Below are positions 41,660 through 62,581 of a stretch of DNA of 64,000 bases, in pieces. The position numbers and the translations under genes are program-made. The notes below the pieces were generated by a model, which saw only the letters and a list, made by a program, of their open reading frames with translations, was not told the DNA's origin and made no database searches. This DNA comes from Bactericera cockerelli (lineage: Eukaryota; Arthropoda; Insecta; Hemiptera; Triozidae). The stretch is from contig CM044962.1 in NCBI GenBank assembly GCA_024516035.1, positions 2,913,027-2,977,026 on the forward strand, read 5' to 3'. Within the stretch, counting starts at the first letter, position 1; each line of letters starts with the position of its first letter.

Positions 41660-42405
41660 ATGTCGGAAGCAGGCCCTAGCACAACACTGGGCATGGAAGT
41701 CAGATGCAAAAGCGGTAAGGATTAATTATTTTACTCTTACAAAGATTTGATGTATGAAGACATTCTTGTGTACGGGATTGAAGATTTGATGTATGAAGAC
41801 ATTCTTGTCTACGGGATTGAAGATTTGATGTATGAAGACATTCTTGTCTATGAGATTGAAGATTTGATGTATCAAACAATCAACCATCAAAAATCCTGCA
41901 CACTATTAAAATAACAAGATTTTTCAGTAGTACTATAACTAAGTAAAATTCTACTATTGTTACTTATTACAGATAACCCTGATACAAATGTTGAGAGTGA
42001 CAACCTGGTTTCAGAAATCAAGCAAGAAAATTCAGATGACCTAGAGATAGATTTTGAAACAAACACTTTTGTGCCAAAAATCCAAGATGTTGCAAATGAC
42101 CCGGAGTCAGACATCAAAAGTGACAATCTGGCAGTTAAAATCAAACAACAGATTACACATGATCCAGAACCACACATTGAAAGTGACAATCTGGCATCAG
42201 AAATCAAGGAAGAGCTAACAAGTGATCCAGAAAGTGACACAGAAATCAAGCAAGAGACTGCGAGTGATCCAGAATCAGCCATTGAAAGTGACAACCTAAC
42301 ATCAGATATCAAGCAAGAGCTTACAGATGACTCAGATATGGACATTAGTGAAAAGCTGGAGGTGAACTTGGTTACTCCCCATGACACAGCAGGATCTTCC
42401 TCTAG
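41660..42405 (+). CDS. Shared N-terminal exons of a zinc-finger gene
   Basis: Exon 1 (41660-41714, from ATG) encodes MSEAGPSTTLGMEVRCKS and ends at the donor GTAAGG with one leftover base. Exon 2 (41973-42405) follows TTACTTATTACAG and ends at GTGAGT, leaving AG of a codon. Together they encode ~162 acidic residues made of diverged ~25-aa repeats (DPESxIESDNLxSEIKQE). Four IKQE/IKEE sites match the SUMO consensus. No BTB, ZAD, SCAN or KRAB domain is visible. The partial codon AG is completed by one base (G or A, giving AGG or AGA, Arg) at each of the three downstream finger exons. The role is probably a nuclear regulatory region. A 176-codon antisense frame mirrors exon 2 and is a shadow. Confidence 0.72.
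41741..41876 (+). repeat. 39-bp minisatellite in intron 1
   Basis: About 3.5 copies of a 39-bp unit (GATTGAAGATTTGATGTATG then AAGACATTCTTGTCTACGG). Being a multiple of three, it stays open in one frame and would read IEDLMYEDILVYG per unit, but retention of the intron meets a stop first, so coding use is unlikely. Confidence 0.9.
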
Positions 42406-44530
42406 GTGAGTTATCACATTTTATCAAAAACAAAGACAATTGAGGATTCTCATGAAAGATGGTTTATTTTGGTGATTCCGTTACTTTCCTTTCTATAAGA
42501 TAAGGAAAGTGATAAAAAATTGAATTAATTTATACACTAAAAAATATTTAAATTTTGTAAATCAAATAATTATTAACAAAGCTAAATTATACAAAATAAA
42601 ATAACATCTGGTTTTAATTTCATATGCTGTTCATGATGTCTAAAAACAAAATCCCCATTATGAGATATTTATTTATTAAATAGTATTGAGACATTTACTT
42701 ATGAAAATGAAACATTTCAAACATGCAGACTTTCCAATTTACGATTTATTTTGCTGTCTTACCTTTTAAATTATCTTTTATTTTAACAAATTCTATATCA
42801 CTTTAACCATTTTTTTATGAGAATTGTCAACTGTTTTTGTTTCAATTGTTCAAGACCAAATACCTACAGTGTAGCATGAGCACAATCATTCAAGGACAAA
42901 ATTAGTGTCCTTGGAATATTGGCACTCTTCACCACTTAGTGGGTACTTTTTATTTATTTGAAAAAAACTATCAATAAAACCATTGTATTCAGTGCCTAAA
43001 ATTAGACTAAATTCATATGCTGCTATCATAGTCCAAGATGGAAAAAATCTCACACTCCCCAATGTTTACATTTTATAGTTAATGTCTAAACTGTTCAAAA
43101 ACATAACTGTAATGTAGAATTGGTAAAAAGAAATTCGCAAAAAAGTAAATTTTATGCAAGAGTACAGTAAGAAAAACATGTCTTTAAATTAAAATAGCTC
43201 TCACTCAGTCTATTCTTAACCAAATATTATGATACTAAAAGTGAAATACAGAGCGCACTTCATTGTTAACAAAATCTGTTTTATCCAAAAAGTCCAAATT
43301 GCCCTTGCACCAACTCCTCAGTTGTCATCATTAAATTCTTGGTACCCTAAGAATGCTGACACACCAGAAAATCTTATACATTTAAATTTCAACGGCACAA
43401 AAGTCAATGCATTAGTGTGAAAAGGCATTTAATTTTATTACCAGGGTAATTGGTCTTGTTTCAATTCTTTCTCTTGTAGTTTAAAACAGAACCTCATTTG
43501 GGTATTAAACTCAAATCAAAGATAGGTTGGAATTTGACATTTATTTTGGTCTTATGTAATAATGTTACCTCATGAAATTTTGTAAAATGTTTATAACTCA
43601 ATATTTGATCTTGTTAACAAAATATTGCTGTTGTGAAAGCTTAGGCAACCCAAAAAATGCCTGAAATTTCCATAAATAAGTTGCTTAATATACAGGGCTT
43701 CCATTGTTCTTTGGAAATTCTGATTTTAATGGGATGGATGTTTCGATAGAGAGTCTAAACGTTCTGTCGGAAACCGTTTCTACAGCCTAAATGGTAACAG
43801 ATACTCAAATCCAATTCTAGTACACCATCTCTTAGACCCCACCCAAAATCAATCACTCTACTAAAAAAAACTGACAAGGTGAATTGCCTTCTGTAGAAAA
43901 GCTATGGACTGTCTTCCGAACTCTAGGATTCTTGCAACAAATCAAAGCATTTTTGTGGATAATAAAGGTTTTCCGCATAGAGCCTAGTCATCAGACCATG
44001 CCTCTAATGACTCTATTGAGTAGTGTGATTTATTCCGTACACACTTCAAGGGGGGTTGACTTGGGTCAGATTTTGTCTATCTGTTATCATTTTGACTGAA
44101 GCGGGGGCAGACCATGACCCAAGCTGAGAAAAGGCTATTCAATACTCTTTTTGATACTGGGGAAGCCAAAGAATGACTAGACTTGGGGCGGGAAAATACC
44201 TCAATCGGTTGCACAAGGAAGCCCTGAAAGTGAATATTAAAATCTGCACACACTGTGTTCATAAAGTGCAGCAACGGCAGATTAAACAAAATTTTCTCAC
44301 TCGGAGACCACCAGTTCATATGTTTATGCTAATTTGAAGAGGCAGCCATATTAAATTAGTAAGCAATAAACATTCCGGGTTTCTTGTAAAATTCTTCTGA
44401 AATGAAGATAGAAACATCCAGATGAAAATAATAGGTAACCTCATTTAAGATTTTGAAACTCACCTCTTTGGGTCACTCTTGATTATGTCCTTGAAATTTT
44501 AAATTTATTGAAAAACGTAATACAATTATA
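42406..44530 (+). other. Intron of the zinc-finger gene, proximal part
   Basis: AT-rich intronic DNA after the GTGAGT donor. A palindromic CTTTCC...GGAAAG motif at 42486-42512 and a diverged FB2-like piece at about 43010-43070 (CATATGCTGCTATCATAGTC, AAAAATCTCACACTCCCC) are the only matched items. Short frames at 43.2, 43.9 and 44.1 kb show no domain. Confidence 0.5.
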
Positions 44531-45591
44531 CAGGGTGATTCAGAAAAGTACCGTCAAACGTTAACCACATATTCTATGGGCTAGTTAAGGAGGGGTCAAC
44601 TCTATAAAAGAAAGTGCGCAAATGCCTCCTAACGGAGTTACACGCCCCTTAAGGTGTTTTTAAACAATCGAAATTTTCATTTTACGGCTTACTTATTTGG
44701 GATATCGCAATGTGGTAAAAAAATCACTCTCAATACTAGATAGCACCTTTCTTTTGGCACAAAATTTAACACCATTCCAATATCAGGGGCGGTCTCAGGA
44801 GGGTCAGATGGTAGAAAAAAGGTTCTAACTTTTTAGTCGTTGCTTGTAATTGAATTTAGTTTTCACCCTATTAAAACGTCTGTCATTGTCTACAAAAATG
44901 TTCTGAATAATTTTTTTCTCAAACCAACACAAACGCTTGAAAATTGAAATTGAAGATTTTAAAACCGCATTAAGTTTTGAAACCTATGCAACTAGCATAC
45001 AATTTTAGAACAAGAATTTTCAGCCAATTCATTATTTAACAAAGAAATACACCTGGAATATTTGAACGTGTTCGTCAATCTTTTCGAAGGCATATGGAGG
45101 TCTGCATTGAAGCCAGAGGAGCCCATGTGGAACATTTGCTGTAAATCTTATTTCGGCTTAAGCCCTTCAATTTCAATTTTCAAGCGTTTGTGTTGGTTTG
45201 AGAAAAAAATTATTCAGAACATTTTTGTAGACAATGACAGACGTTTTAATAGGGTGAAAACTAAATTCAATTACAAGCAACGACTAAAAAGTTAGAACCT
45301 TTTTTCTACCATCTGACCCTCCTGAGACCGCCCCTGACATTGGAATGGTGATAAATTTTGTGCCAAAAGAAAGGTGCTATCTAGTATTGAGAGTGATTTT
45401 TTTACCACATTGCGATATCCCAAATAAGTAAGCCGTAAAATGAAAATTTCGATTGTTTAAAAACACCTTAAGGGGCGTGTACCTCCGTTAGGAGGCATTT
45501 GCGCACTTTCTTTTATAGAGTTGACCCCTCCTTAACTAGCCCATAGAATATGTGGTTAACGTTTGACGGTACTTTTCTGAATCACCCTGTA
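44529..45591. mobile_element. Foldback element FB3 with near-perfect long arms
   Basis: The element 44531-45589 has tips CAGGGTGATTCAG and CTGAATCACCCTG flanked by TA (TATA on both sides). The arms of about 430 bp are nearly identical inverted copies around a ~200-bp centre (44965-45160). It has no transposase. TA flanks suggest a Tc1/mariner-type mobiliser, as inference. Confidence 0.93.
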
Positions 45592-45646
45592 TAGGCGTAC
45601 ATTTAAGGCTGAATTATGAAACAGGATTTGTTAATCTTAGTATCCC

Positions 45647-45881
45647 TTAACACATATGAGACGGGTCCTATTTTCTATAGTTTGTACGCTGGGACGGCTT
45701 CAAATTAGGGTATGTGTTCCAAATATGACAACAACAAAAAAAAATTGGGACGGGCGAGTACAAAAATATATTAATAATATCATTATCTGTGCCCACCGGT
45801 AGGTCACGTTACAAGGGAAATTGAAAAAAAAAAAAAAAAAAACGTGACCCACCAGTGGGCATGCCGTCTCATACGTGTTAA
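45647..45881. mobile_element. TTAA-flanked MITE, type d
   Basis: The element 45651-45877 lies between TTAA tetranucleotides. Ends CACATATGAGACGG and CCGTCTCATACGTG are inverted with one mismatch. The interior holds GCCCACCGGTAGGTCACGTT, an A run and the inverse AACGTGACCCACCAGTGGGC, so it can fold on itself. Confidence 0.85.
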
Positions 45882-45924
45882 CTTTCACCTTGACAACAAC
45901 TGTGGGGTCATACCCAAAAATTTA

Positions 45925-46297
45925 AGTAAAGTGAAAAACCAATATTAATATCATTTTCAGCATTTATTAGACTGATTTGATATGCCGCACTCAAAATCTG
46001 AGATAGAAAAAATCTCACACTCCCTAAAGTGTGTGAAACTTGGTGTGACAAAAAATACAACTAAGAATTTTATTGAACTTAGAATTTTGTGTGGATTTAA
46101 AAAATGGCATAAAAAATAGGGCATGCCATTCAAAATTCCAATGTTGACCTTGAAGGGGTCATCCAAGAAACTTCTAAACTGTTCTAAAGGACACCATGTG
46201 TACCTTTTAAAGCTATGAAAATAATCTGTGAACAGATTTTTCTAGCGCCAGTAGTTCTCGAAATATTTGAATGTCTCGTTTATAATGGGACACCCTG
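45925..46297. mobile_element. FB2 arm with terminal tip
   Basis: Inverted match to 24044-24420 ending ATGGGACACCCTG at 46297. Shares GATATGCCGCACTCAAAATC, TGACCTTGAAGGGGTCATCC and ATATTTGAATGTCTCG with that element. Confidence 0.7.
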
Positions 46298-46301
46298 TAT
46301 A

Positions 46302-46608
46302 ATTCCAGGGGTTCTAAAGTTGAGGGAATATGAATGGAAGATAGAGCCCAATGAACAATATCATTGAGTTCCACATGACGAGGGAAGCAACCTTTCCCTT
46401 TATAACAAATTAGACCATGTAAACCATCTTCCTTGTTTTCTGTTCCACACACTCACACATATGACACTTGAAAATAGAATAACCCAGGTGAATACCAACA
46501 CACATTTTAAATGATAAATTTTCCATCAAAGTTCCCATATTTTTAGATGAATATACTTGAAGCCAAGCTCCAGATTCTTTTTCTTGAACATGATTTTTCA
46601 CTTTTTAG
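46302..46608 (-). pseudogene. Retroelement-associated protein fragment
   Basis: In two frames the minus strand reads ESGAWLQVYSSKNMGTLMEN, LGYSIFKCHMC, then CGTENKEDGLHGLICYKGKG and FPRHVELNDIVHWAL...LEPL. The ordered pattern GAWL, LGT, N-S, C-x-CG, G-HGL-C, RH-LND, RAL, LEP matches a conserved segment I know from reverse-transcriptase-linked hypothetical proteins in arthropod genomes. A frameshift near the cysteine pair and truncation at both ends make it a relic. It is flanked by FB2 arms. Confidence 0.6.
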
Positions 46609-46775
46609 GATCTCAAGTATAGGGGACCCAAAAATTTAAGTATTGATGTGACAAACCAATATTACTTTTGTGTTCAGCACCTCAAATCAGTCTGTTTGAT
46701 ATGCTGCACTCAAAATCTGAGATAGAAAAAAATCTCACACTCCCTAAAGTGTGTGAAACTGGGTGTGACAAATAA
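46609..46775. mobile_element. FB2 fragment
   Basis: Repeats part of 45925-46050 in the same orientation (ACCCAAAAATTTAAGTA, CACACTCCCTAAAGTGTGTG). Confidence 0.65.
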
Positions 46776-46830
46776 TACCATTGTTTTGGGTATGTATTTA
46801 ACTTCTGTGGCGTAACAAAGCAGTAGTCAG

Positions 46831-46832
<2 letters not shown>

Positions 46833-46864
<32 letters not shown>

Positions 46865-47153
46865 TGAGTGTTTCACAGCCTTTTTTGTTTCGTAGCCATG
46901 AAACAGGAGCTACTGTAGACGCTTGTGGCCTGTGTTGTAGCCTGTCCATTCCGTAGTATGCCTCCCCTCTGATGGGCGAGAAGTGACACAATACTTCCCA
47001 TTTAGGTGCTGGGTCAACACGAGCGCACCGGAAGGTATCCCTTACAAACAACTGTAACCAAATTTAGAATACAAATTTTTGTCGGCGCGGGGGTTCGAAC
47101 CCGGGACCTTCCGCATGGCAAGCGAGTGCTTAACCACTGAGCTATTCGTGCGC
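46833..47153 (-). mobile_element. SINE family I, full-length (minus)
   Basis: A 27-T run, complete body, and complete Gly-like head with clean boxes (GGGTTCGAACCCGGGACC, TAACCACTGAGCTATTCG). This is the best-preserved copy in the window. Confidence 0.93.
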
Positions 47154-48156
47154 TCATAACGATTCTAACATGAAGTCTAGAGAGTTTGATGCCCGGTTGG
47201 AGAAGACTTTTAACACAAATTATGTTCCCTATATTCAAATTTTCCTAAAAACTCACAAATATGTAAACCAACAGCCCCACGCACTTATACAACGAGTTCT
47301 ACGAAGACTGCACAGATTCGAGTAGTATTTCTTTTTCTGTGGGATTGGGGAAAAATACCGAGCAGCTGACTGTCATGAACAGCTGAAAAATCTAAGTGTT
47401 GGCTTGGATTTACTAATCCTGTTTCATAATACGGCCCTCAAAATTTCAACTTCCTATCTTAACTGTTCAAAAGTTAATCAGCTGTTGCAGAACTTTATGG
47501 ACACATTGTATGTGTATTTTGTGAATACCTTTGGCCAAGATGCTTTCGGTTAAACCCTCAAGTTAAACACTTGAGGGTGGGTTACTGCACACAGTAAATA
47601 AATTTCTGCAACCTCTGAAATTTCGAATATCATTTCAATGGACATTTTGTTTACTAAACAGATAACAGAGAGTTTTTTGTCATGTAAAATTACAAAGCTT
47701 TTTCGTATTTTAAAATAATTTTATCCCATGACCCTTTAAAGTGCCATAATATTGTGAATGGGTATCATCTCGAGCATATTATTATCTTTTTGCCCAAGAG
47801 GACACATGCTGGGCTTTGTTAATGTGTTTATGTTTTTTTTTTTTTTTAATTATGGTATAGTTATTTGAATGAAACCTGTGTTTTTTTTTTATTGTGAAAG
47901 TGATTGAAGAAGAAAATGTTCCTATGTATTTTCAAGTTGTGTTGAACTTGATTTTTTCCCCCCAATTTAAATTGTACTTATGGTGGTAAAGTGCAATTCT
48001 AGCGACCTTTCAGATGTTTGGGATAAGTAAGTTAATTATTATTCTTCTATTATTAGATATTGAAGGGTGTGTCTCAAGACAAGCTTAACCATGCTGCACT
48101 TGAGATGCCACATAGGTTAAAGAGCTTTAATAAAATTTTGTTCTGATTTTTGTAGC
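47154..48156. other. Intronic spacer, no gene
   Basis: Apart from the MITE end near 47420 and T runs at 47836 and 47880, nothing is recognised. Confidence 0.45.
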
Positions 48157-48858
48157 TTTAGCAGGGTGTCTACTGGTCAGGGAAAACCTGGAAAACCTGG
48201 AATTGTCAGGGAATTTTTCGAGACCAAAAAAGTCAGGGAAAAGTCAGGGAATTTTGTGAAAATATCAGAGTTTTATAATTAATAAAAAAAAAATTATAAT
48301 TAATTTAAAAATAAATAGCCTTTGTAAAACAATAATATTATGCATATACATACAAAATTTCATCAAAATCGGGTGTACCGTTCACGAGATATAAGCGTGT
48401 AAAAAATTAGTGGTCAGGCGCATGGTCTCTGTCACCCAGAACCGCTTGTAAGAATTTAAAATGGGACCATCTACAGAACGTCTCCTATATGTGTGCAAAA
48501 TTTCATCAAAATCCGTTGAGTAGTTTCTGAGATTTGCGCGTTACAAGGAATATTTTTAACAGATCGACGGACCGACAGACGGACATAAAACCAAAGTTGC
48601 TCAGGAGGTTATGAAACGTCCAGAAATATGAAAAAAATGAAATCGGAGCAAAAAAATATTTTTTTTTTTTACAAAAACGAACAAAAAACTTCCGATTTCT
48701 ATAATATTAGAAATTTCTCGGAAGTAATAGAAGTCTTAAATAATATACATATAATGTCTCCTTAAAAAAAGTAGACTGGAAAAACTGGAAAAATGGTCTG
48801 GAAAACCTGGAAAAGTCAGGGAATTTTACTTTGACCGCTTAGTAGACACCCTGTTTAG
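48157..48858. mobile_element. CAGGGTGTCTACT element with TTTAG direct repeats
   Basis: The element 48162-48853 has tips CAGGGTGTCTACT and AGTAGACACCCTG, flanked by TTTAG on both sides (48157-48161, 48854-48858). Subterminal sequence is built of short GTCAGGGAA and CTGGAAAA repeats. The middle (48260-48720) is an inserted piece of repeat R. The superfamily is uncertain. Confidence 0.8.
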
Positions 48859-48875
48859 ATTGTAGACTCCTAAGT

Positions 48876-49210
48876 CCACATTATGAAACAGGATTAGTAA
48901 ATCTAAGCCGACCCTTAGATTTTATCAGCTGACTGATAGGTTAATTCAAACAATAATTTCTACCACTAAGGCTGGCTCCGTTACGTCACAGAACTAATAT
49001 ACAGCTACAAAGCTTGGCTTACTACTGTTGTTGTCAGGATGAAAGTTAAGAGATAAATGTCCATTAATTTAACAAATCCCGTTTCATAAATCAGGCCTAG
49101 AGCCGAATTATTTAACAGGATTAAATATCTGAGATTTGTTAATCCAAGCTACTATCACTTATCAGTCAATAAAAATGTGCTATGGATTGGTTACAATTCC
49201 CATCAGAGGA
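48876..49210. mobile_element. AAACAGGATTAG MITE plus adjoining half copy
   Basis: 48876-49097 is bounded by ATTATGAAACAGGATTAGTA and TTAACAAATCCCGTTTCATA in inverted orientation. A second half copy starts at 49100 (CCGAATTATTTAACAGGATT) and runs to the TTAA element. Confidence 0.6.
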
Positions 49211-49215
49211 GCATG

Positions 49216-50215
49216 TTAACCTGTGAGTACACGCGCTAAAAATCCGAACGTCAATGCACGCGCGATGAAAAAAATTCTCACACCTGGTTTTGCTTTGTAT
49301 TTCGTTCTGCTTGAAGAGTTATATAATATTTTTAAGATACATTAAGTTGACTTATGTATTTAAAAGATATTTAAAGTAATTTTAGCAATTTTTTTTTCCA
49401 AATGGTTGCAGTTCGAACCCCTGATTTGAAATTTTTTTTACTTTCCAAAATTTGTTCATCGTAAGCCATAGTGACTTAAGTTTGTAGGGCAATTCGCAGT
49501 ATATCTTATAATCAAGAATATTATGTAATTATATTTGTTTAGGTGCTTCTAAAAGCTAAAAACAGAAACGATAAAAAAATAAATGTACTTAGATTATACC
49601 AGGAGGTAAGTAGGTAGGTAGGTACCCATTATGGTAGGTGGAGAAAGATTACAAAGAATACTAATTATTTCAGAATCTAGCAAAAAAAGTGTAGGAAGGT
49701 ACCTAACTACCTAATATTATTACAAAGAAATTTTACTAATGTTAGTTAAAAGTTTATATTTTGTTAGTTAAAAATCATTATAATAATTATTATAACAATA
49801 GTGAACAATCACGAATTTGGTAGATAAACACACTAATTTTCTTTAAAAAAATATATTTCTTTATATAAAACAATTGTTATTATTATATTAATTAATTATT
49901 AAAACTAATTATTATAAATAATTAATTAAATTAAACTAAATAGTTAGTAACAGAAAAAAAAACTCTGAAAAAAAAAGATACGTCTGTGCACGCGCGATGA
50001 AAAAAAATCTCACATTTCAGACCGATCTGAACTTTTCGCCACGTCACGGGCAACAGAAATTGAAAATAGCTCAAGGGACTGTGGATACATCTAGATAAAC
50101 ATATTATCAACAGCTACTCCAGGTCCCTACAGGTTAGGACCAATATCGATCAAGTTCTAGCGTTTTTGCCGAGCGTGTGAGAATTTTTCCCTATGTGCGT
50201 GTACTCACGGGTTAA
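49216..50215. mobile_element. TTAA-flanked ~1-kb element, type b, copy 2
   Basis: The element 49220-50211 (992 bp) is flanked by TTAA and has ends identical to the copy at 18664-19651. The interior is nearly the same throughout, differing by scattered substitutions and small indels. Confidence 0.93.
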
Positions 50216-51190
50216 GAGATAGTGTAGCATTAGTCATTCTATTGTTATACTTAATATTTTTCATATATTAAATAATATTAAATATAACAATACATACTTC
50301 GATTTCTAATATGAACAATATAACAAATAATTAGTTATTCTAATCATTTATATCATAATTTGGGACGTCATTATACAATCAGAGGTAAGCAAGCACATTA
50401 CAAAGCAAACATTTCCTCTAGTTCATTATTGAGCTGTTCATAGAGCTCGTCATCAAACTCTTATCCTTCGAGAAACTAGCTGTAGCTGTAGGACCTGTAA
50501 AAATTGGGCAAACTTGCATTGGAACTACAATAAAAAATTCAAATCCTCTTCAGCCGTTAAAAAGTTAAAAATGCGTTTCCGGACTTTTTGTTCACTCTAT
50601 GGAAGATACAAAAGTCGGTAAATTTTACTTATAGAATACAAAATGACACTAAATGTCCAACATACTTATTTTTCCGTGGCGGCGGCTTCAGCCACCTGTG
50701 CCTGTTCCAAGAGCTGAATACATGTTTATGTATCACTAACAATTTCTTCCCATTTGTCTGAATCAATAAAAAGCCTGTTTCTTCTTCATCCTTTCCTATT
50801 TTTTAATACAAAGAATTCTTCGTCTTCCTCTTGATCTTCCCTTTTACTTTCGATATTTTATTTTTCTTATTGTCATTTTATTTTTTTGTGTTAAAAAAAA
50901 TTCATTGTATACTTGACACCAGTTAATGAAACTTTGTTTAATCTGTGAGACTAAAGTCTATTGTGTTGATCGATGTCCTTCAATTCTTTTTTCCAAATGA
51001 TGTTTTTATTACAAAATAAGAAACCATTGATTTTTAATTCCTAATGAGAAAAACACCTACGGAAAGACTACCTGGCATTATCAAGTACCAAAATTAATGG
51101 GATACACACATAGATTAAACAATAAGTCAGGCTAATTTTAGACTTGGGGTGGTCATAAGATGTTGCACCCCCATTAGCAGCGATATAGAG
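50216..51190. other. Intronic spacer with element fragment
   Basis: 50560-50602 (AAAATGCGTTTCCGGACTTT, TTGTTCACTCTATGG) resembles the end of the family at 57566-58376. No gene is seen. Confidence 0.45.
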
Positions 51191-51193
51191 TGT

Positions 51194-51425
51194 CTATTAC
51201 ACTCTTATACAAAAGCATGTTCGATATTACACTCTTATACAAAAGCATGTTCCGTTCGAAATTAGAATATTGTTCTGCTCTATGGACTCCACAAACAAAA
51301 TCCCTCGTGATAAAAATTGAGGGGAGGTAACGAATTCTCTACCGTTGACCTTTTCTTCCATCTTTTGTAAGTTTACTTAACGAATTCACTCCTGAAAATA
51401 AGACCATGCTTTTTACATTAGGTGT
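51194..51425 (+). pseudogene. LINE reverse-transcriptase C-terminal relic
   Basis: Reads LYKSMFRSKLEYCSALWTPQ then KSLVIKIEG followed by stops. The Y-K-S-M-V-R-S-x-L-E-Y-CS-x-LW pattern is typical of the LINE thumb region. The first part is a 29-bp tandem duplication (TATTACACTCTTATACAAAA then GCATGTTC, twice at 51195-51251). Confidence 0.65.
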
Positions 51426-52140: not shown

Positions 52141-52239
52141 CAGCAAGTTCTGAGTATCCATTTATCAGGTAGTGGTTCAGATAAATTTGTTGTATCTATA
52201 TTTTTTCAGTTTTCTTGATTTTTTTTTTTTTTTTCTAGG

Positions 52240-52475
52240 GACATTTGATGTGGTATTAAACATTTAATAAAAATTATAATGTATGAGATCTACTATACAA
52301 TCCATTGACGAGAGTAGAACTATCTAATTTTAAGACAAATTTATTATTTTGTTTCTAAAGTATCAAAAAATATTCTTACCTAGTCGAAACTGGAAAATAT
52401 TCACAAAAAACCACACTGGGGAAAACCATAATCTGTGTGAAAAGTGTAACTTCTTATATTTTTTTTTTTTTTACT
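52240..52475 (+). pseudogene. Dead zinc-finger cassette, exon 5' part
   Basis: The intron end (TTTAAGACAAATTTATTATT, then TTGTTTCTAA) matches those before the three intact cassettes, but the acceptor TAG is mutated to TAA. The exon start GTATCAAAAAATATTC then GTCGAAACTGGAAAAT corresponds to the VS...ELEN leader, with an in-frame TAG at once. CACACTGGGGAAAACCA and CTGTGTGAAAAGTGTAAC are finger-linker remnants. Confidence 0.72.
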
Positions 52476-52927
52476 GAAACTTGTGAAATTAAATGTACGA
52501 TATCTCCGGCCCTGTTTTGATCAAATATCTCAAACTTATCTTAAAATTTATTTAATGTCAACTACTTTTTAGAAATGTTTTACAAATAGGGTGGTTCCAT
52601 TTATGATTCCAAAGTTGACCCCCCTGGGGCCGCCCCTGGTAATGATAAAAAATCTAAACTTAGTTAAAAAGGTGTCCCCCTTGATATTGTGGTACGATGA
52701 ATTGTTTTAGCTTTTCTCAAAATTTAAATCCACTCTAGTGGCTCCTTTTTTTGGCAGACCCAGTCTGTGTTTTATTCTTAATTTCTTTTAAATTTCATGG
52801 TAAATTATAAGATATTATTATTATAGTAAGCTTTATTGGTAGAACAAAAATATTTACAGTAAAATACAATGAAATTCTAAAGAAAAAACAAAAAGATTGA
52901 GCAAAGATACGAGAACAAAAAAAAAAC

Positions 52928-53620
52928 ACTGCCAATTATGGACACAATACTTCCTCGTGATTGTTTCACATTGTGTACACGTGCGAATTTTGAGTTTTTA
53001 TACTAAATTACTTGTATCTCCAAAACGGCTGAACCGATTTTCTTCAAATTTGTTTTATATGGTAGAAAACCGTTTTTTCTACATTCTAGATTCTACAAAA
53101 AATTCTGTATCGGCAAGTCGTGATTCTTATTTTTTGACTTTATTGTCCAAATTTCGGATTTTTTTAAATATCAGAGTCAAATTATAATTAATTAAAAAGA
53201 AAATATAAAAAACCTATGTAAAACAATAATATGCATATACATACAAAATTTCATCGAAATCGGGTGTACCGTTCACGAGATATAAGCGTTTAAGTAAAAA
53301 GTTAGTGGTCAGGCGCATGGTCTCTTTCACCCAGAGTCGCTAGTACGAACTCGATGAATTTAAAATGGGACCATCTACAGAATGTCTCCTAAATGTGTGC
53401 AAAATTTCATCGAAATCGGTCGAGTAGTTTCCGAGATTTGCGCGTTACAAGGAATCGTTTTAACAGACAGACCGACAGACGGACACAAAACCAAATTTGC
53501 TCAGGAGGTTATGAAACGTCCAGAAATATGAAAAAAATTGAAATCGGAGCAAAAAAATATTTTTTTTTACAAAAACGAACACAATACTTCCGATTTCTAA
53601 TATTAAATGAAGTAAAAGAG
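52928..53620 (+). repeat. Dispersed repeat R, longest copy
   Basis: Contains GATCCGATTTT-type phrases such as CAAAATTTCATCGAAATCGG twice, CGGTCGAGTAGTTTCCGAGA, and a CAGACAGACCGACAGACGGA segment, then GCTCAGGAGGTTATGAAACG. Other copies lie at 6745, 23690, 37195 and within 48162-48853. I cannot assign a class; the 101-codon frame inside is not a gene. Confidence 0.65.
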
Positions 53621-53718
53621 AATGAAGTTAATGTCCTAACTAAAGGGCGGGGTTATTGTCCGTGGCAATCTCTTCCACCCATCATCATCACATTGTGAAA
53701 AATACATGAAAGTTTTAG

Positions 53719-53924
53719 TTTTTTTTTTTTTTTTTTTTGTACTTTCAAAAGTATATTTTTTATTGAACAAATTCTTTCATCTTCATAAATATAATTTAAA
53801 TGTAAAAAATAACTTATTAATAAAACGAAAATTAGGAACATGGCAAGTTAAGTGGCCAATTATGCATAGCATGTGTTAGGCCACTTTTTATTATAATTAT
53901 ATTATTATTTAAAACTGTCCTTTT

Positions 53925-53961
<37 letters not shown>

Positions 53962-54071
53962 TTATAAATTTTGAAAATGTTAAAAAATGTTTTCATGTTA
54001 TGTGTGGAGTGTTTTTGATTGTTATGTCTGTTTTATTGAGTACTTATACATTCAAATAATTAGGGAAAAAT
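53719..54071 (-). mobile_element. 5'-truncated copy of the window's LINE
   Basis: Reverse complement of the full-length LINE from just past the ORF2 stop (about 5507) through its poly(A). It includes the intact hairpin stem (53850-53886) and an expanded A/T homopolymer. It starts with a 20-T run at 53719. A possible 7-bp target duplication (AGTTTTA) flanks it, tentative. Typical of aborted target-primed reverse transcription. Confidence 0.92.
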
Positions 54072-54329
54072 AAATAGTTTTATCAATTTTATTTTAGTTT
54101 GGTTATATTAGTTATTTAAATTTAATTATTTTTCTAAAAATAAATTTGTAGATGATGTTCAGTTTATTTTATTAATGTATTTTTTGTTTCTAGAGTAATT
54201 TGATGTGACAAATTTTGCACACTTGTTCATTGAATTGAAATAGATAATGTATACTAATAATATACTTTACTACACGTTGGTGACATAGTAAGAACTTATT
54301 TTAAGACGAATTTATTTTTTTGTTTATAG

Positions 54330-54804
54330 GGTATCAAAAAAAAAGCCTACCAAGAAGGAACTGGAAAAGACTACCCTCACTGTAGAAAAACCTTACAACT
54401 GTGATTATTGCAAAAAAACTTTTACTTCATCACATAACCGAAAGTTGCACATTAGGACACATACAGGAGAGAAACCATATGAGTGTAATGTGTGTGGAAA
54501 ATATTTTGCTCGACCGGACCATCTTAAGTGTCACATGAGAACTCACACGGGAGAAAAACCATACGCGTGTAATGTATGTGGGAAATGCTTTTCTCATTCA
54601 ACCGATTTAAAAAGTCACATGAGAACCCACACAGGAGAGAAACCATACTTGTGCGTTGTATGTGGACATTCTTTTTCTCAATTACAGCATCTTAAATGTC
54701 ATTTGAGATCACACACGGCAGAAAAACCATACAAGTGTGATGTATGTGAAAAATATTTTACTCAATCAAGATTCCTAAGAAAACATATGAAAACACACTG
54801 TTGA
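54330..54804 (+). CDS. Zinc-finger cassette A (5 C2H2 fingers)
   Basis: The exon starts after GTTTATAG with a single G completing the Arg codon left by the shared exon 2. A leader VSKKKPTKKELEKTTLTVEK follows, then five C2H2 fingers (YNCDYCKKTF...H-x3-H; YECNVCGKYFARPDHLKCH; YACNVCGKCFSHSTDLKSH; YLCVVCGHSFSQLQHLKCH; YKCDVCEKYFTQSRFLRKH), ending KTHC and TGA. Linkers are mostly HTGEKPY, typical of DNA-binding arrays. The joined protein would be 320 aa. AATAAA signals lie at 54978 and 55254. Fingers have distinct helix residues (RPDHLKC, HSTDLKS, QLQHLKC, QSRFLRK), so a specific DNA target is expected. Confidence 0.82.
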
Positions 54805-54960
54805 CAAACCATATAAATGTGATGTGTGTGGAAAATATTTTACCTAGTCAAACAATATAAAATCATTTGAGCACACACGGGAGACAAACCATACGAGTGT
54901 GATGTCTATGGAAAATATTTTACTGAATCAAGTATTCCAAATATGCTTACAGAGTGTCCA
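54805..54960 (+). pseudogene. Decayed fingers after cassette A
   Basis: After the stop, GACAAACCATATAAATGTGA, GTGTGTGGAAAATATTTTAC and a second unit (GACAAACCATACGAGTGTGA, TATGGAAAATATTTTACTGA) are finger remnants with stops and lost cysteines. The ancestral array was longer. Confidence 0.78.
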
Positions 54961-55389
54961 TCTCTTGAAAGCACCATAATAAATTAGTAAAAGCACCTTA
55001 ATTAATTCGAGTCTATTCCGTGTTCTTCGCTTCCCAATCAAATAATTTAAAGGGTGTTTTAGGGGTAAATTACCCGCAAAAAAGTTATGATATTATAGCC
55101 ACATTTCGACTTTGGTGAATGCAAATAGCATTTCTTAGCTTTTCTTCAATGTTCTCGACGGTTCCTCATAGTATAAAATGTGCAAACACAAAAAACTAAA
55201 AAAAAGAGATATACAAAATTTAGTTAAAATTAAATTATTTTGTATAGATACCCAATAAAGAAAATTTTCATACATCATTAGATTCAATAAGTTTATTTCT
55301 TTTAGGTTTTTTATTATTAATATCTGACCTGGTTGCAGGGTTTTCTATGAAACACTTACAATTAACACTGCGACCTAATTAGATCTATT
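54961..55389. other. 3' flank of cassette A
   Basis: Non-coding; holds two AATAAA signals (54978-54983 and 55254-55259) that could end transcripts using cassette A. Confidence 0.45.
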
Positions 55390-55630
55390 GTGACCAGTTG
55401 ATTCTATTTGGTTTTATCGTCTTGATTGAGATAGATTGTCAGGACGGGGGTTTTATCCTCCATTCGCTGGGAGTCGTACCAGCTACCCACATGAACTTCA
55501 CCCAGCCTTTGGGTAGGGCCGGAAATGCCAGCCTCACATGTACGGAGGTAACAGAATTTTCTGTTCGAAAAGTCTGCTCCGACCGGGGATCGAACTCAGG
55601 ATCTCTGGACTACGCCACGGAGGCTGGCTT
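55390..55630 (-). mobile_element. tRNA-headed SINE VI copy
   Basis: The minus strand: CCTCCGTGGCGTAGTCCAGA, B box GAGTTCGATCCCCGG, GACTTTTCGAACAGAAAATT, then core GGGTGAAGTTCATGTGGGTA, CGAATGGAGGATAAAACCCC. The head lacks a short segment relative to 39077. The RTE tail is missing. Confidence 0.83.
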
Positions 55631-56079
55631 CTTTTAGGTTAGTACTACTACGATTCCTGTATAAACCTTTGTACTGGCAACTTCTCTTTTGGTTTTTACA
55701 ATTTTTGTGTTTGGACTAATTTATCTGTGACCGTGATTTTCATAAAGTAATAATAAGTTTATGAAGTTTGCTACCTTAGTAAGTTAAACGGCATGGTCGA
55801 ATAAGTTTTTCCGTGGTATTAAATGCTCAGCTTAACTGATTTTATCAACACTGATTTAAGATCCAACCACTTGCCATTTTTCTATAAAATTGTGAATTTT
55901 TGAAATCCATCAACACAAAAAAATATATGTCCCTAGTTTTATGTCCAGTATGTCCCTGGTTTTATTTTTAGAAAATTTGTAATCAACTCCAGGAGACTTT
56001 CCAAGACTAAAAATGGTCGGTCTAAATCTAAATAAAAGACCTTCTACGAGTCCGGGTATGTGGACATTACCGCTGCTCC
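55631..56079. other. No gene seen
   Basis: Spacer left of a transposase relic; no feature was matched. Confidence 0.4.
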
Positions 56080-57540
56080 ATCAAATGTCTGGGCAACATG
56101 TTTCTGTCCAAACTGTAAATCATCAATTTCTCTCACTACGTGTGAGAATAAGGCACTCTGGACTCCAAACATTAGTTAAAAATAAATATCCATCTGCCCA
56201 CTTAATTCATTGTTATAGCTATCGCCTAAATTTAGTTTTATCTAAGTCATGTTGTTCAATCAAGGAGTGTAACGCTTTCAAACAGCTAGAAAGTATACCA
56301 AGTTTCTTTTCTCATTCTAAAGTACGGACAGAAATCCTTTCAAATTTAATAATTAAAAAGCTTCCAGATTGAGCGCCCACTAGGTGGAACTTTTCATCTC
56401 AACTAGTGAATTAATTAGTGCAAACTTACCGATCTCATTTCCTTGGGTTTTTTACATCAATGCATGACAATGTGGATGACTGGGGGACGTAGTCTGGCTG
56501 AGGGACGTTAAACAGGGAGAAGACCAGTGTCTCGCTAGAGGACTATAAACAGAGAACAGACTAGCCAACCCTTACAAGCCAGGCTAGCTTGCAGTTTCCT
56601 ATGGGTTTAATGGCTTATAAAGAAAAGTACAAGTCCTCATGATGGTAGATCGCATATAGAAATATATGGTTCAGGACGAGCCAACTTTGAAATAAAGTTG
56701 GCTGGAGACCATCACTCACCCCTCCAGCTTTAGCCAAGCTGGCTACAACAACAACAACATGTGGATGACTCATCCAGTGATGAAATAAATAGTGCTGTTG
56801 GTTTTGAAGTTTTTCTTTCTAAATTTGAAACTCAGTTTCTCTTTTTTCAACACAATTTTCAGCCATTCTGATAATTTGTTTGGTTATTTGAAAAAAGTCA
56901 CCGGACATTGCATACTGTATAAATGAAGTAAATGCTTTTTTAGAACGCATCAATAATATCCCTGAGAATTATTTCAAAAAACTTTGGGTCGATCTAGAAG
57001 AAGAAGTAGAGCACTACTATCAAAAATAGAGGATCTCCTGATAAAGAAAAAGTCAGATCTCTATTCAACAAAATACTTGAAACAATAGTCGAGCAGACAG
57101 AATTATGGTTACATCACAAAGCGCCTCGAAATTTGTATCTCTATTGGATCCAAACCATTTTGAAAATTATATGAGAAAATTTCCCGATGATCTACTGAAA
57201 CAATCTGACTATCATCAATTTGATTTTGTAAGATTAAAAAACGAACTCTCTCTTATTTACTTCAAAAAATCTACAAGAGACCAATTTATGAGCTTGTAAG
57301 TTCCGTGGAATCTCGAGAACTTGACATTGTTTTTACAGAAGTGTTTAAATTAGCAGTTTTGATTTCAACTTACCCGTCAACAACCACGAGCATAGAAAGA
57401 TCGTTCTCCGCTTTGAAACGTATCGACACAAAACCAATTCAGATCGACAAACCTGGCTACTCTTTCAATTGAAAAGATTTACTTTTGAAGTTAAAATCAA
57501 AAGAAGATTTTTACACCAAAGTGACCTCGAATTTTCTTGG
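56080..57540 (+). pseudogene. hAT/ZMYM-type transposase pseudogene
   Basis: Fragments in order: LVKNKYPSAHLIHCYSYRLN then LVLSKSC (the YP...HC-x-RLNLVL signature), FKQLESIPSFFSHSKVRTEI, LPDxAPTRWNFSSQLVN (R-W core), a helical region SKFETQFLFFQHNF, and near the 3' end LAVLISTYPSTTTSIERSFS then ALKRI-like residues, the hAT C-terminal dimerisation motif. The order and motifs match the DUF4371/hAT family that includes zinc-finger MYM-type protein 1. Many stops and shifts, plus an inserted element at 56482, make it non-functional. Confidence 0.8.
56470..56770 (+). mobile_element. Retroposed element with 12-bp target duplication
   Basis: The insert 56482-56758 is flanked by ATGTGGATGACT on both sides (56470-56481, 56759-56770). 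It starts GGGGGACGTAGTCTGGCTGA, has inverted AAAGTTGGCTGG/CCAGCTTTAGCCAAGCTGGC pieces near the 3' end and finishes in CAACAACAAC. The 12-bp duplication and simple-repeat tail indicate LINE-type retroposition. It interrupts the hAT relic, so it is younger. Confidence 0.85.
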
Positions 57541-57563
57541 AAAAGCAAGGCTGCTCGATATTA

Positions 57564-58378
57564 TACAGAGTGAACGAAAAGTCCCGAGACAGATTTTGTT
57601 TTTTTTTTTTAACCACTTGAGATTTTCTATTTTTTGGAGGAATTCGAATTTTTACAGGTTGTTTCAAAATTAATGAAGCACGCATCAACTTTCTATTTTA
57701 AAATATAAACCCCTATTTTTTATTAGATATTCGAAATTCACGTTGAATTCTACACATGATTGACCCATCACTAAATACTTTGATCAAACGGATCTTTGAT
57801 CAACTCAACGGAATCATGGACTTTTCTTCCGGAAGAAGTGTTAAAACCCTGAGTGTGATATATCAAATCAATGTAGTTTTTTTATGTCAAATCATTTGGT
57901 CGAATTGGTTTTTCCAAATTTTACACATCAGGTCCTAAAGCTGGTTTCGAACGAGATTCTCGGAGAACACCGGGATGATTACGAGCTGTATGAACAGACG
58001 TGTAAAATTTTGGAAAACCAAAGCCACGTGATTTAACATGAAAAATTACACTGTCTTGATGTATCATACTATGGGTTTTAACACTTAAATCCCAAATAAA
58101 AGTCCGCCAGGTTCATCGAAAATCCGTTTGATCAAAGTATCGAATGAGATCTCAATTGTGTGTAGAATTTGACGTAGATTTTGAAATGAAAAAGGGGGTT
58201 CTATTTAAAAAATTGAAAGTTGATGCCTGTTTCACTATTTTTGCAACAACCTGTAGGAATTCCAATTCCGCCAAAAAATGGAAAATCTTGCGTTAGAACT
58301 TCATACAAAAATTCTAGTCCCTATCTTGAGTCGTGAAAAAGCTAGAAATCTGTCCCGGGAGTTTTCGTTCACTCTGTA
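57564..58378. mobile_element. TIR element, CAGAGTGAACGAAAA family
   Basis: The element 57566-58376 has ends CAGAGTGAACGAAAAGTCCC and GGGAGTTTTCGTTCACTCTG flanked by TA. Matching inverted words continue inside (GATCAAACGGATCTTTGATC centre-left, TTGATCAAAGTATCGAATGA centre-right). No transposase. Confidence 0.83.
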
Positions 58379-58439
58379 TACGGATAAGATTAAGGTAAGA
58401 ATTTTTTCTATGGCACTTATTTATTCAGCTTGAGCTAGC

Positions 58440-58964
58440 CCAAGCTTCAAATGCACGCTACCCTACTAAAAAGTACACACAAAAGCACAAACGGGAGTGA
58501 CAAACCATACTAGTGTCATTTGTGTATGGAAAATCTTTTGCTCAATCAAGGACTCCTAAAAGCATCTGAGAACCCACACGAAAAACAAACTCTACGAGAG
58601 TGATGTTTATGGAAAATGTTGTATTCAATTAGGCAGCCTAAAATATTATTTTAAAACCCACACGAGAGACAAACCATTCGAGTGTAATGTGTGTGGAAAA
58701 TATTTTACTCAAACAGGGAATATAAAGAGTCATGTGAAAACACACGAGAGACAAGCTATATGAGTTTGATGGGTGTGGAAAATCTTTGTTCAATCAAGCG
58801 ATTTAAAGAAGTATATGAGAACCCCCACACTGGAGACAAACCATGAGTGTGTTAAGTGTTGGATTTTTTTTTGTTGCTCAATCATGCACCCCAAAGTCAT
58901 ATCAGAACACACACGGAGAAAATCATTCAAGTGTGTTGAGTATGGGAATTATTTTTGCTAAATC
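58440..58964 (+). pseudogene. Relic zinc-finger array between cassettes A and B
   Basis: About seven finger remnants at ~84-bp spacing, such as GACAAACCATACTAGTGTCA, GACAAACCATTCGAGTGTAA with GTGTGTGGAAAATATTTTAC, and GGAGACAAACCATGAGTGTG. They are riddled with stops and single-base indels. Probably the 3' part of another dead cassette. Confidence 0.82.
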
Positions 58965-59530
58965 ATGTCCACACTGCCCCAGTCAAAAAAAATTTCACTG
59001 CCCCAGTCAGGCTGAGCACGGGCCAACATTAAAATCTAAAATAGAATAGTATATTGTGTGGCATATTGTTTGAGAGGAAATCATTGCAACAAATTTCATT
59101 GAGCTACGACATTCCGTTCTTGAGATACAGGTTCGCCCATTCTGGCTAATATCCCAATAATCTGACCTATAACTTAATTTTCAGAAGTATAAGTTTTCTT
59201 CAAACAAGGTATAACTCGACGTGAATTTTAGTTTCTGGTCGGTTTCTTCAGCCAGCCTGACGACCAGTCGGCAACAGTTTTAACTAAAAAAACTTATCGA
59301 CTTATGCCTGAAACTTACGGTGATCAAGTTAAAGGTTAGAACATAGGGATATTAGCCAGGAAGGCCGACCCTGTATCTCGAAAACGGCATATTGTAGCTC
59401 ACTGAAATTTGTCGCAATGAACTTCTCTTAATAAGGCCATGAAAATAATATATCTCAAGACTTCGAATTTCATTAAAAAAAATAAAGTTGGTCCGTGACC
59501 AGACCAATCTGACTGGGGCATTGTGGGCAT
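58965..59530. mobile_element. TIR element with TGCCCCAGTCA ends
   Basis: Ends ATGTCCACACTGCCCCAGTC and GACTGGGGCATTGTGGGCAT are inverted with two mismatches. CACTGCCCCAGTCA is repeated directly near the left end. Arms pair over ~250 bp (CATTGAGCTACGACATTCCG with CGGCATATTGTAGCTCACTG). A related arm lies at 61380-61600. Confidence 0.75.
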
Positions 59531-59833
59531 TTTTTTTTTTTTTTTTTTGCTGAAACTTAATCCCCCAAAATATTAAGAAATACTTTTTGCTTGTTTCTAT
59601 ATTTTTAGTCGTTCTTGAGGGGGGTAGGGTGGGACTTTATGGAAACTCTGTAGATCATTAAAAAATCATTACTTTATGTAAAAGTATGTACAGTAGAATT
59701 ATTTCTAATGTATGTAACATTTATGCAATCTATTTATTATTTATTTTCAGTTATTTTTTAATGGAAATAAACGAAATCGCCTATAAGTATTATCTATTTT
59801 TAAGACATTTATTTTTATTTATTTTGTTTCTAG
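59531..59833 (+). other. Intron end before cassette B
   Basis: T run, then AT-rich sequence ending TTTTAAGACATTTATTTTTA and TTGTTTCTAG, the same acceptor context as the other cassettes. Confidence 0.6.
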
Positions 59834-60926
59834 AGTATCAACAAACATTCCTCCCAAGACGGAACTGGAAAATATTTGCTTGAAGACCGACTCTGGAGAA
59901 TACCCTTATGAGTGTACAAATTGTAGAATGTCGTTTATTACATCAGAGAACTTAAAGGTGCACTTGAGGACCCATACAGGAGATAAAATATATGAGTCTA
60001 ATATGTGTGGAAAACCTTTCTCTCGATCGAACAATCTAAAAAGTCATGTAAGAAAAACCACAGGAGACAAGCAACATGAGTGTGATGAGTGTGGAAAATC
60101 TTTTTCTAAATCAAGATATCTGATTCATTTGAGAACTCACATGAGAGACAAACCATTTGAGTGTGTTGTGTGTGGAAAATATTATAATGAATCTAGAAAT
60201 CTAAAAAATTATATGAGAACCCATACTAAACGATATGAGTGCGATGTTTGTGGGAAATCTTTAACTTTATCTAGCACTCTTAAAAATCATATGAGAATCC
60301 ACACGGGAGATAAACCATATGAATGTGATGTTTGTGGAAAATCTTTTGCTGTATCAAGCACTCTTAAAAATCATATGAGAACCCACACGGGAGACAAACC
60401 ATATGAGTGTGATGTGTGTGGGAAATCTTTTTCTTTTTCAAACGTTCTAAAAAATCATATGAGATCCCACACGGGAGACAAACCATATGATTGTGGTGTG
60501 TGTGGGAAATCTTTTTCTATATCAAGCACTCTTAAAAATCATATGAGAACCCACACGGGAGACAAACCATATGAGTGTGATGTGTGTGGGAAATCTTTTT
60601 CTATATCAAGCAATCTAAACATGCATAAGAGAACCCACACGGGAGACAAACCATATGAGTGTGATGCGTGTGGAAAGTATTTTCCTCGTTTGTACAATCT
60701 AAAACTTCATATGAGAACCCACACGGGAGATAAACCATATGAATGTGATGTTTGTGGAAAATCTTTTGCTGTATCAAGCACTCTTAAAAGTCATATGAGA
60801 ACCCACACTGGAGAAAAACCATATCCGTGTGATATGTGTGGTACATCTTTTACTAAAGCAGGTTATCTGAACAGTCATGTGAAAAAAAGACACCCGGAAG
60901 ACAAACTGTATGAGTGTGATGTGTGA
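59834..60926 (+). CDS. Zinc-finger cassette B (12 C2H2 units)
   Basis: The exon begins after TTGTTTCTAG with one A (completing Arg as AGA). A leader VSTNIPPKTELENICLKTDS follows, then 12 finger units at 28-residue spacing, mostly with the unusual linker HTGDKPY. Units 2-4 are degenerate: unit 2 has YESNMC with the first Cys lost and RKT instead of the last His, unit 3 is one residue short, and unit 4 has NYMRTH with the first His lost. Units 5-12 are intact. Units 6 and 11 share the helix AVSSTLK and almost identical DNA. A TGT-to-TGA change at 60924-60926 ends the frame at the next unit (YECDV). The joined protein would be 526 aa. A DNA-binding role is inferred. Confidence 0.83.
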
Positions 60927-61295
60927 GAGAAATCTTTTTCTAAATCAAGCCATCGAAAAATTCATATGAGAACCCACTGGGGAGACAAACCATATGAGTA
61001 CTTTGAGTGTGGAAATACTTTAATGTATCAGGTAATCTCAGAAATCTTATGAGAACCCACATTGGAGACAAACCATATAAGTGTGATGTATGTGGGAAAT
61101 CTTTTTCTCAATCAACTCATCTTAAAGGTCATGTGAAAACACACCGAGGAGACAAACCATATAAATGTGTTGGGTGTGGGAATTTTTTGCTAAATCTTGC
61201 ACATTAAAAAGTCATATGAAAACACACAGAAGAAAAACTAATGTGATGTGTGTATAAAAACCCTTTCTAATTAAAACAATTTAAAAATCCTAACG
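60927..61295 (+). pseudogene. Fingers lost downstream of cassette B's stop
   Basis: Translation past the stop gives [20 protein letters not shown], then after a shift [40 protein letters not shown] and further decayed units. At least four fingers were removed from the protein by the nonsense change and later shifts. A 66-codon open frame at 61007-61207 is part of this. Confidence 0.85.
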
Positions 61296-61379
61296 TATTA
61301 CAAGGTACTTTTACTATTACAAGTCGTTTCGTGGAACAGCTGAAAATATAGAAAAAACCCTAAAACCCATATTTCTCAA

Positions 61380-61600
61380 TTTTTAAGGACAAGCCCCACT
61401 TGGACTGGTCACGGATCAACTTTAAAATCTTAAATGGATTGTTATGTCTTGCGGCATATTTTTTTAAAAGTCTCCTTAAGAGAAGTTCATTGCAACAAAT
61501 TTCATTGAGCTACAACGTACCATTCTCGATATACAGGGTCGGCCGTCGTGGCTAATGTGCCTATGTTCAGACCTTTAACTCGTTAACCGTAAGTTTCAGA
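61380..61600. mobile_element. Arm related to the TGCCCCAGTCA element
   Basis: Shares GCAACAAATTTCATTGAGCT, CTCGATATACAGGGTCGGCC and CTTGGACTGGTCACGGATCA with 58965-59530; the other arm is missing. Confidence 0.6.
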
Positions 61601-62043
61601 AGGATCAAGTTTTTTGTTGATGTTAACACCCTCTAACGAGACCTTTCGAAGAAGGTTTAACTCCATATTTTTTTATTTTTCATTTTTAACTTTTGTCGGC
61701 TGTTATGTTACACATACTATCAAATAAAATTACATTCGGGCCAGAAAAGATAAATATCCTGTATGTTAATTACAGCCTTAGACGTAATTTATCTGTGTAG
61801 GTGTATTTTATTGTTTTTTTTTAAATCCTGTTTGTTAATTATAGCCTGGGACGTAATTTATTTGTCTAGGTGTAATTTTTTATGTGTATTTTTCATTATG
61901 GAGAAATTTGATGTGACATAGACATACTTGTTAATTGATTTGAGTATGATTTTGATTTTTGTCGATAAACTAAAATACAATACGACGGTGAATATATTCA
62001 GTTATATCTAATTTTTAAGACGCATTTATTATTTTGTTTCTAG
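61601..62043 (+). other. Intron end before cassette C
   Basis: Contains a local duplication (CAGCCTTAGACGTAATTTAT and TAGCCTGGGACGTAATTTAT, ~70 bp apart). It ends TTTTTAAGACGCATTTATTA, TTTGTTTCTAG as acceptor. ATTTGATGTGACATAGACA at 61906 matches the same relative position before cassette A (ATTTGATGTGACAAATTTT). Confidence 0.6.
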
Positions 62044-62581
62044 GTTATCAAAAAAAGTTCGTATCAAGACGAAACTGGATAATAATCACAAGACCCACAC
62101 TGGAGAAAAAAATTATGAGTGTGAATTTTGTAGAAAGTCTTTTACTACATCACAGAACCAAAAGTTGCACATGAGAACACATACTGGAGAGAAACCATAT
62201 GAATGTAAAATTTGTGGAAAATCTTTTTCTCAAGTAAATAATCTAAATAGTCACATGAGAACACATACGGGAGACAAACCATACAAGTGTGATATGTGTG
62301 GAAGTTATTTTACTCAATCAAGCATCCTAAAAAGTCATATGAGAACACATACAGGAGAAAAACCTTACAAGTGTGATGTGTGTGGAAAAGATTTTGTTCA
62401 GTCAAGCATTCTTACGAAGCATATCAGAACCCACACGGGAGACAAACCATACGTGTGTGTTTTGTGTGGAAAATCTTTTTCTCAATCAGCCCATCTAAAT
62501 CGACATGTCAAAACACACAGGGAAAAAAATTCTACGAGTGAGATGTATGTAGATAATGCTTTACTCGATCAAGCTTTCTAA
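62044..62581 (+). CDS. Zinc-finger cassette C (5 C2H2 fingers)
   Basis: The exon begins after TTTGTTTCTAG with G completing the Arg codon. A leader LSKKVRIKTKLDNNHKTHTG follows, then five intact C2H2 fingers ([95 protein letters not shown]) and a 23-residue tail NSTSEMYVDNALLDQAF-type ending at TAA. The tail comes from a frameshifted former sixth finger (STSEMYVDNALLDQAF reads where YECDVC was expected). Finger 1 closely matches finger 1 of cassette A (xxCxxC-KSFTTS-x-NxKLH), which supports cassette duplication. The joined protein would be 341 aa. Confidence 0.83.

Follow-up and report, generated by a model that had tools for sequence, protein, structure and literature searches.

A window of 64,000 nucleotides from the Bactericera cockerelli genome (C8:2913027-2977026, in a 565-Mb assembly of 1032 contigs) contains a zinc-finger locus that is likely to be one gene with at least six alternative terminal exons, here called cassettes, behind a single pair of constant N-terminal exons. 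The sequence was also read for 49 kb beyond the window end, and cassette coordinates there are given in window numbering (Table 1). The original prediction had placed three finger cassettes (A, B and C) behind the two constant exons. Its exon coordinates, donors, acceptors and joined lengths of 963, 1581 and 1026 nt, stops included, were recovered exactly as claimed, and all three cassettes are real, but the set was incomplete: three further intact cassettes (E, F and H) lie past the window end, starting at C8:2978061, 2983959 and 2991286, and D, R and 62937-63012 are relics. The idea of one gene with alternative finger endings is borne out in its anatomy (six cassettes, one constant match and codon bias) but left the origin of the array incomplete, since the PR/SET likeness described below was missing from it.

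Constant exons and cassettes in one frame

The joined frames of all six cassettes are open, divisible by three and preceded by intact acceptors, and E, F and H have the head, the phase and the split Arg codon in common with A, B and C. Splice-site strength was scored by a simple weight matrix and ranked among the window's 3476 GT and 3351 AG sites. Both donors of the constant exons (GCG/GTAAGG and TAG/GTGAGT; a slash marks the splice point) outrank 99.5% of the GT sites, and the four acceptors of the original prediction outrank 97.9% of the AG sites. Within 42406-64000, 24 acceptors are at least as strong as exon 2's own; three of these belong to cassettes and open 364, 179 and 158 codons, and the next best of the 24 opens 44 codons from the exon 2 donor. 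Weaker acceptors beyond the window open 60-86 codons. The last 18 nt of the intron show 84% identity across the six cassettes. Because the cassettes are paralogs that inherited acceptor and head together, their agreement in phase amounts to a single coincidence (about 1 in 3), not three. An acceptor-like site at 54194 (TTTGTTTCTAG/AGTAATTTGATG, region 54156-54230), about 135 nt upstream of the acceptor of A, opens only three codons before a stop, and sequence related to this site is also found upstream of D, C and E. An AATAAA follows the stop at a distance of 0.2-0.8 kb in cassettes A, B, C, F and H; cassette E has ATTAAA only, within 1.2 kb behind its stop. Since the cassettes are terminal exons, they can be called mutually exclusive.

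The constant region seems to be present once. In six-frame searches of the assembly, constant exon 2 matches its own locus at E 3.4e-82 and its next match is at E 0.73, and constant exon 1 matches its own locus for residues 1-21 only (E 0.02). Exon 2 has a D+E content of 28% and internal repeats of the type SDNL..EIKQE, and the constant region carries four SUMO-type motifs, whereas 0.25 are expected from shuffles. A Pfam scan of its 162 aa gave 0 families at E<=0.01, and neither a BTB/POZ domain nor a KRAB box was found. The prediction of an acidic constant part with SUMO motifs instead of BTB is upheld as far as motifs go. This N-terminus is of an ordinary kind, because 8 of the 12 insect proteins recognised by name (among 120 listed) also have at least one SUMO-type motif before their first finger. 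Intron 1 contains a 39-bp tandem repeat of 3.4 copies at 41742-41872.

If the six cassettes belong to one gene, a single promoter would give a pre-mRNA running through the array, in which the exon 2 donor would be joined to one cassette acceptor per transcript, always via the split Arg codon, and cleavage behind the chosen cassette would end the transcript. Each cassette would supply a linker, a conserved first finger, divergent further C2H2 fingers and a private stop, and a poly(A) site used by that cassette alone probably follows. The protein would consist of the acidic part with its four SUMO-type motifs and a cassette-specific finger array, so that one promoter and one effector region would serve several DNA specificities. 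The array would have grown by tandem duplication of the terminal exon together with its acceptor, with copies lost by decay. Such proteins might act by SUMO-dependent repression, perhaps with mobile elements among their targets. The same anatomy is expected if the cassettes are transcribed from promoters of their own and joined in trans to the constant exons, as at mod(mdg4), where the 3′ exons use independent promoters according to the accessible text of PMC12692577. We regard trans-splicing here as very improbable: the six cassettes all lie downstream of the constant exons on the same strand, and the 1.1 kb between the stop of B and the acceptor of C, mostly finger relics, a palindromic repeat copy and an intron piece shared with A, leaves little promoter space. 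Moreover, in a survey of eight insect species, mod(mdg4)-like events are given as the only conserved ones in the available part of the paper (PMC4667647).

Table 1. Exons, cassettes and dead copies at the locus, in window numbering.
Feature	Position	Strand	Description
Constant exon 1	41660..41714	+	MSEAGPSTTLGMEVRCKS/D, phase 1 donor GTAAGG
Constant exon 2	41973..42405	+	Acidic, repeats, four psi-K-x-E motifs; donor AG/GTGAGT, phase 2
Dead head D	52328..52441	+	AA in place of the acceptor AG, TAG in frame, no array of fingers found
Cassette A	54330..54804	+	5 zinc fingers, head RVSKKKPTKKELEK
Tail of A, decayed fingers past its stop	54805..54941	+	
Dead cassette R	58466..58968	+	Five finger relics, gaps and stops, no head seen
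Cassette B	59834..60926	+	12 finger units, 9 canonical, head RVSTNIPPKTELEN
Tail of B, decayed fingers past its stop	60927..61292	+	
Cassette C	62044..62581	+	5 zinc fingers, head RLSKKVRIKTKLDN
Single finger relic	62937..63012	+	Further units past window end; six in all, 62900-64500
Cassette E	65035-65707 (past window end)	+	7 fingers by pattern
Second head, dead	near 70788		Directly upstream of F
Cassette F	70933-71539 (past window end)	+	6 fingers by pattern
Cassette H	78260-78830 (past window end)	+	6 fingers by pattern
Finger pieces, dead	78837-79055 and 79565-79777		

In the sequence beyond the window, no canonical finger was found between 79.7 and 113.0 kb. One further open reading frame, G (C8:2986150-2987262, window numbering 73124-74236), encodes three basic repeats of the EWM.LY.ARKR type followed by five zinc fingers. 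Its basic part has no Pfam match above cut-off, and splicing to an acceptor at 73216 would give it an open frame of 340 codons. G was considered for a seventh place in the array but not counted, as the shared head is absent; it could be a gene on its own or an atypical cassette.

Codon bias and decay in the cassette array

The cassettes show a codon-position-3 bias that the relics lack. In the six cassettes, 200 of the 412 framework mismatches are located at codon position 3, whereas 36 of 148 are so in the relics (P = 1.5e-7, Fisher's exact test; fingers within one array are not independent, which makes the codon-position P values optimistic). The mismatches of each cassette were scored against a consensus built from the other cassettes, with unit A5, which holds the stop, removed, and those of the relics against the consensus of all live units. 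Relic units were taken from R, from the decayed tails of A and B and from 62900-64500; head D, the head near 70788 and the finger pieces downstream of H were excluded, and the tail of C yielded no unit. The share of position 3 per cassette ranges from 0.44 to 0.55, with P values from 2e-5 (B) to 0.04 (E). An earlier run with A, B and C only had given 114/220 vs 38/135. When neutral substitution was simulated, the frame stayed open in 3.2%, 0.5% and 4.8% of runs for the finger units of A, B and C, respectively. The four DNA-contact positions are also the most variable among the 8855 possible sets of four. The contacts of finger 1 are conserved across cassettes (dN 0.23), but those of the other fingers are not (dN 1.05 between cassettes).

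These results bear on the explanation that one cassette only, most simply A as the nearest, is a real terminal exon and that the rest are duplicates never or no longer used. It draws on the many dead copies (D, R, 62900-64500, the 70788 head, 78837-79055 and 79565-79777), on the decayed finger tails of A and B, and on the broken fingers of B, a cassette that is partly decayed, with 9 of its 12 finger units fitting the canonical pattern. We consider it unlikely, given that all six cassettes have intact acceptors and open frames and that codon-position bias is found in every cassette and is absent from the relics tested.

Several observations weigh against one gene with six live endings. The predicted introns would span 11.9-35.9 kb. 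The constant region gave zero matches at E<=10 in a protein database search (2104 candidates); its exon 2 is open on the opposite strand too, for 177 codons, and the internal repeats of this exon show only a slight position-3 bias (45, 26, 51). The position-3 bias is weak in E, F and H (P 0.02-0.04), the head shows no excess at position 3 (32, 37 and 21 mismatches), and decay is seen at array ends and in the early fingers of B. Cassette F has in-frame Met codons both at residue 17 of its head and upstream of its acceptor, and could start by itself. In the five gaps between cassettes (20.5 kb), no first-exon candidate with a comparable donor was found, but a background of 0.5-0.6 per 10 kb predicts only about one, so this lack is weak evidence; a laxer cut-off gives one candidate of 5 codons between E and F.

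The last two points concern the explanation that the cassettes are separate genes, each headed by an N-terminal exon unrelated to the others. Separate genes are the usual form of finger clusters, as in Oncopeltus, for which the accessible text of PMC6444547 describes tandem clusters of 4-8 genes with pseudogenes. A stretch of contig C12 in the present genome has five PR-exon matches for five finger arrays, and F might start from its own Met. A, B, C, E and H, however, have no in-frame Met ahead of finger 1, the constant exons have no second good match in the assembly, there is no PR match at the locus and, though of little weight given the background, the gaps between the cassettes hold no single-exon start with a donor of similar strength. 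These results make separate genes quite unlikely in our judgement, slightly less so than splicing in trans. When the head and first finger of cassette C served as the query and 150 of 2066 candidates were scored, those of the listed matches that start at head residue 1 were all at this locus (B, C, E and F; A was not listed), and the listed matches elsewhere start at head residue 7 or later.

PR/SET-type heads and the probable origin of the array

We compared the cassette heads with those of PR/SET zinc-finger genes in the same genome. The terminal exons of such genes on C12 start with AG/A GTT, VVKPIPPGTELLVDY, and those on C5 with AG/A GTG, VTKTIPPKTELLV, in each case followed by fingers. 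Their upstream exons encode PR domains: the peptide joined from the first C12 gene matches Pfam PRDM2_PR at 8.8e-18 and the solved PRDM16, PRDM12 and PRDM9, and the PR/SET peptide of the upstream C5 exons gives 2.9e-10. At both loci the PR exons are spliced to the terminal exons in phase 2, with split Lys and Ile codons. In a third PR gene (C8:15.94 Mb, minus strand), the PR exon ends AG/GTGAGTTAT, like constant exon 2, and a terminal exon of 11 fingers begins with a split Arg and STRTIPPKTELFV. Thus, the motif V.K.IPP.TEL, from the last PR strand, opens the terminal exon in phase 2 at three PR loci of this genome. The heads of B, (R)VSTNIPPKTEL, and F, (R)VSKSVPPKTEL, have the same motif in the same phase. 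In DNA, B matches the C5 head at 27 of 37 nt and F at 26 of 37, the top two of 6155 AG-start 37-mers; A, C and E match at 22, 20 and 19 of 37, and the best on the other strand is 22. The PR-tail motif is clear in B and F only, and A, C and E alone are within noise; they are linked to PR-type heads because they are homologous to B and F. The head of cassette H is shortened.

The PR domain itself was not found in front of the cassettes. Among the 35 matches of PF21549 in the assembly, none is at this locus, and tblastn of 41-80 kb with the C12 and C5 PR-core peptides gave nothing better than E 0.6. The cassettes therefore look like PRDM-type terminal exons without a PR domain, led by an acidic N-terminus with SUMO motifs. 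Constant exon 2 and the PR exon at C8:15.94 Mb have the same flanking phases (1 and 2) and the same donor AG/GTGAGTTAT. Their acidic similarity scores 47 (shuffle P 0.0065 and 0.0095), a value reached by 19 of the 703 windows that were drawn as controls from other zinc-finger proteins, and the shuffle P values for exon 2 against the C5 and C12 PR exons are 0.06 and 0.30. Since 19 control windows score as high, we do not claim that exon 2 is homologous to the PR-core exon. The matches listed in the finger search were generic zinc-finger proteins, which are uninformative on descent.

For PRDM2, 3 and 16, isoforms that lack the PR domain are reported in the part of PMC2082429 available to us. The probable source of the cassettes is a PR/SET zinc-finger gene, whose terminal exon they would represent with the PR domain no longer in front. 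More fully, such a gene could have lost its PR domain and kept or gained the acidic SUMO-motif N-terminus, and its terminal exon could have become at least six alternative, fast-evolving cassettes by duplication of the exon and not of the gene. The result would be a locus of the lola kind that arose independently, out of a PRDM-type gene, and that may serve as an adaptable repressor of mobile elements. We put this scenario forward tentatively, as somewhat less probable than an even chance. In the accessible text of open-licence PMC papers, subscription papers and preprints being outside this scope, no array built on PRDM-type exons was found.

The genome has 35 PR-domain matches, many for an insect. 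PRDM counts tabulated for 10 hemipteran genera range from 0 to 6, with 1 in Diaphorina and 2 in Pachypsylla (PMC5459927, as far as its text was available). Set against these counts, the 35 matches point to a PR-gene expansion, with the reservation that matches are exons and that some contigs may be duplicate haplotypes. Tandem PR/SET zinc-finger genes are found at C12:12.15-12.22 Mb, on C209 and at C5:6.86-6.95 Mb, with finger arrays of up to 19 units. At C12:19.0-20.4 Mb there are many finger matches on both strands, with open frames of up to about 1100 codons.

Two other features lie in the window. A non-LTR (long terminal repeat) retrotransposon at 1461-5504 has an open frame of 1001 codons with RT (reverse transcriptase) and endonuclease domains; its nearest named relatives come from Diaphorina citri (60%) and from Cyamophila willieti (48%), and three database proteins without a name (58, 50 and 50%) rank ahead of them. 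A probable odorant receptor gene is found at 26889-29132 on the minus strand, where the 7tm_6 match on the last exon (E 5e-5) is below the curated cut-off.

Comparison with known systems

In Drosophila lola, splicing links the constant N-terminal exons to a single C-terminal exon out of many, most of which carry zinc fingers, according to the available text of PMC1947980. The present locus likewise has one constant part and several finger terminal exons in one phase; unlike lola, it has no BTB domain that we could find, and its six terminal exons, each with 5-12 finger units, are paralogs of one another. Similarly, Broad joins constant exons to one of several zinc-finger exons, as stated in the portion of PMC6444547 at hand, whereas here there is no BTB, each cassette has five or more fingers and dead cassettes stand among the live ones. 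In its logic the locus would resemble lola and Broad, yet it does not belong to the BTB genes. At mod(mdg4), more than 30 isoforms combine one constant part with alternative 3′ exons (accessible text of PMC12692577), an arrangement that the present locus resembles. The constant BTB part and the FLYWCH-type acceptor genes, which are trans-spliced and partly come from the other strand, belong to mod(mdg4) and not to the locus studied here (PMC4667647, in its available part). Of the logic of lola, mod(mdg4) and Broad that had been proposed for the locus, several same-phase finger exons behind one constant part are present; a BTB domain was not found, in line with the proposal.

The ZF271-like/APEZ genes of hemipterans share with the array their tandem C2H2 organization, high turnover and pseudogenes; in the accessible text of PMC6444547 they are described as clusters of separate genes without other domains, and a shared N-terminal exon is not mentioned there. 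Shared first exons are likewise not described for a human KRAB cluster in the available part of PMC2865497. The array shares with PRDM genes a terminal exon that starts, in phase 2, within the last PR strand and bears C2H2 fingers; in contrast to PRDM genes, no PR domain was found at the locus, and it is the terminal exon that is multiplied here, not the gene. Zinc-finger repertoires are usually described as expanding through whole-gene duplication. At this locus, the effector end seems to be single, and the exon that reads DNA seems to have been multiplied alone. If this is true, each newly added specificity would from the outset be served by an existing promoter and effector region. The PR-type clusters on C12 of the same genome have multiplied as whole genes, and the two modes of growth can thus be compared directly.

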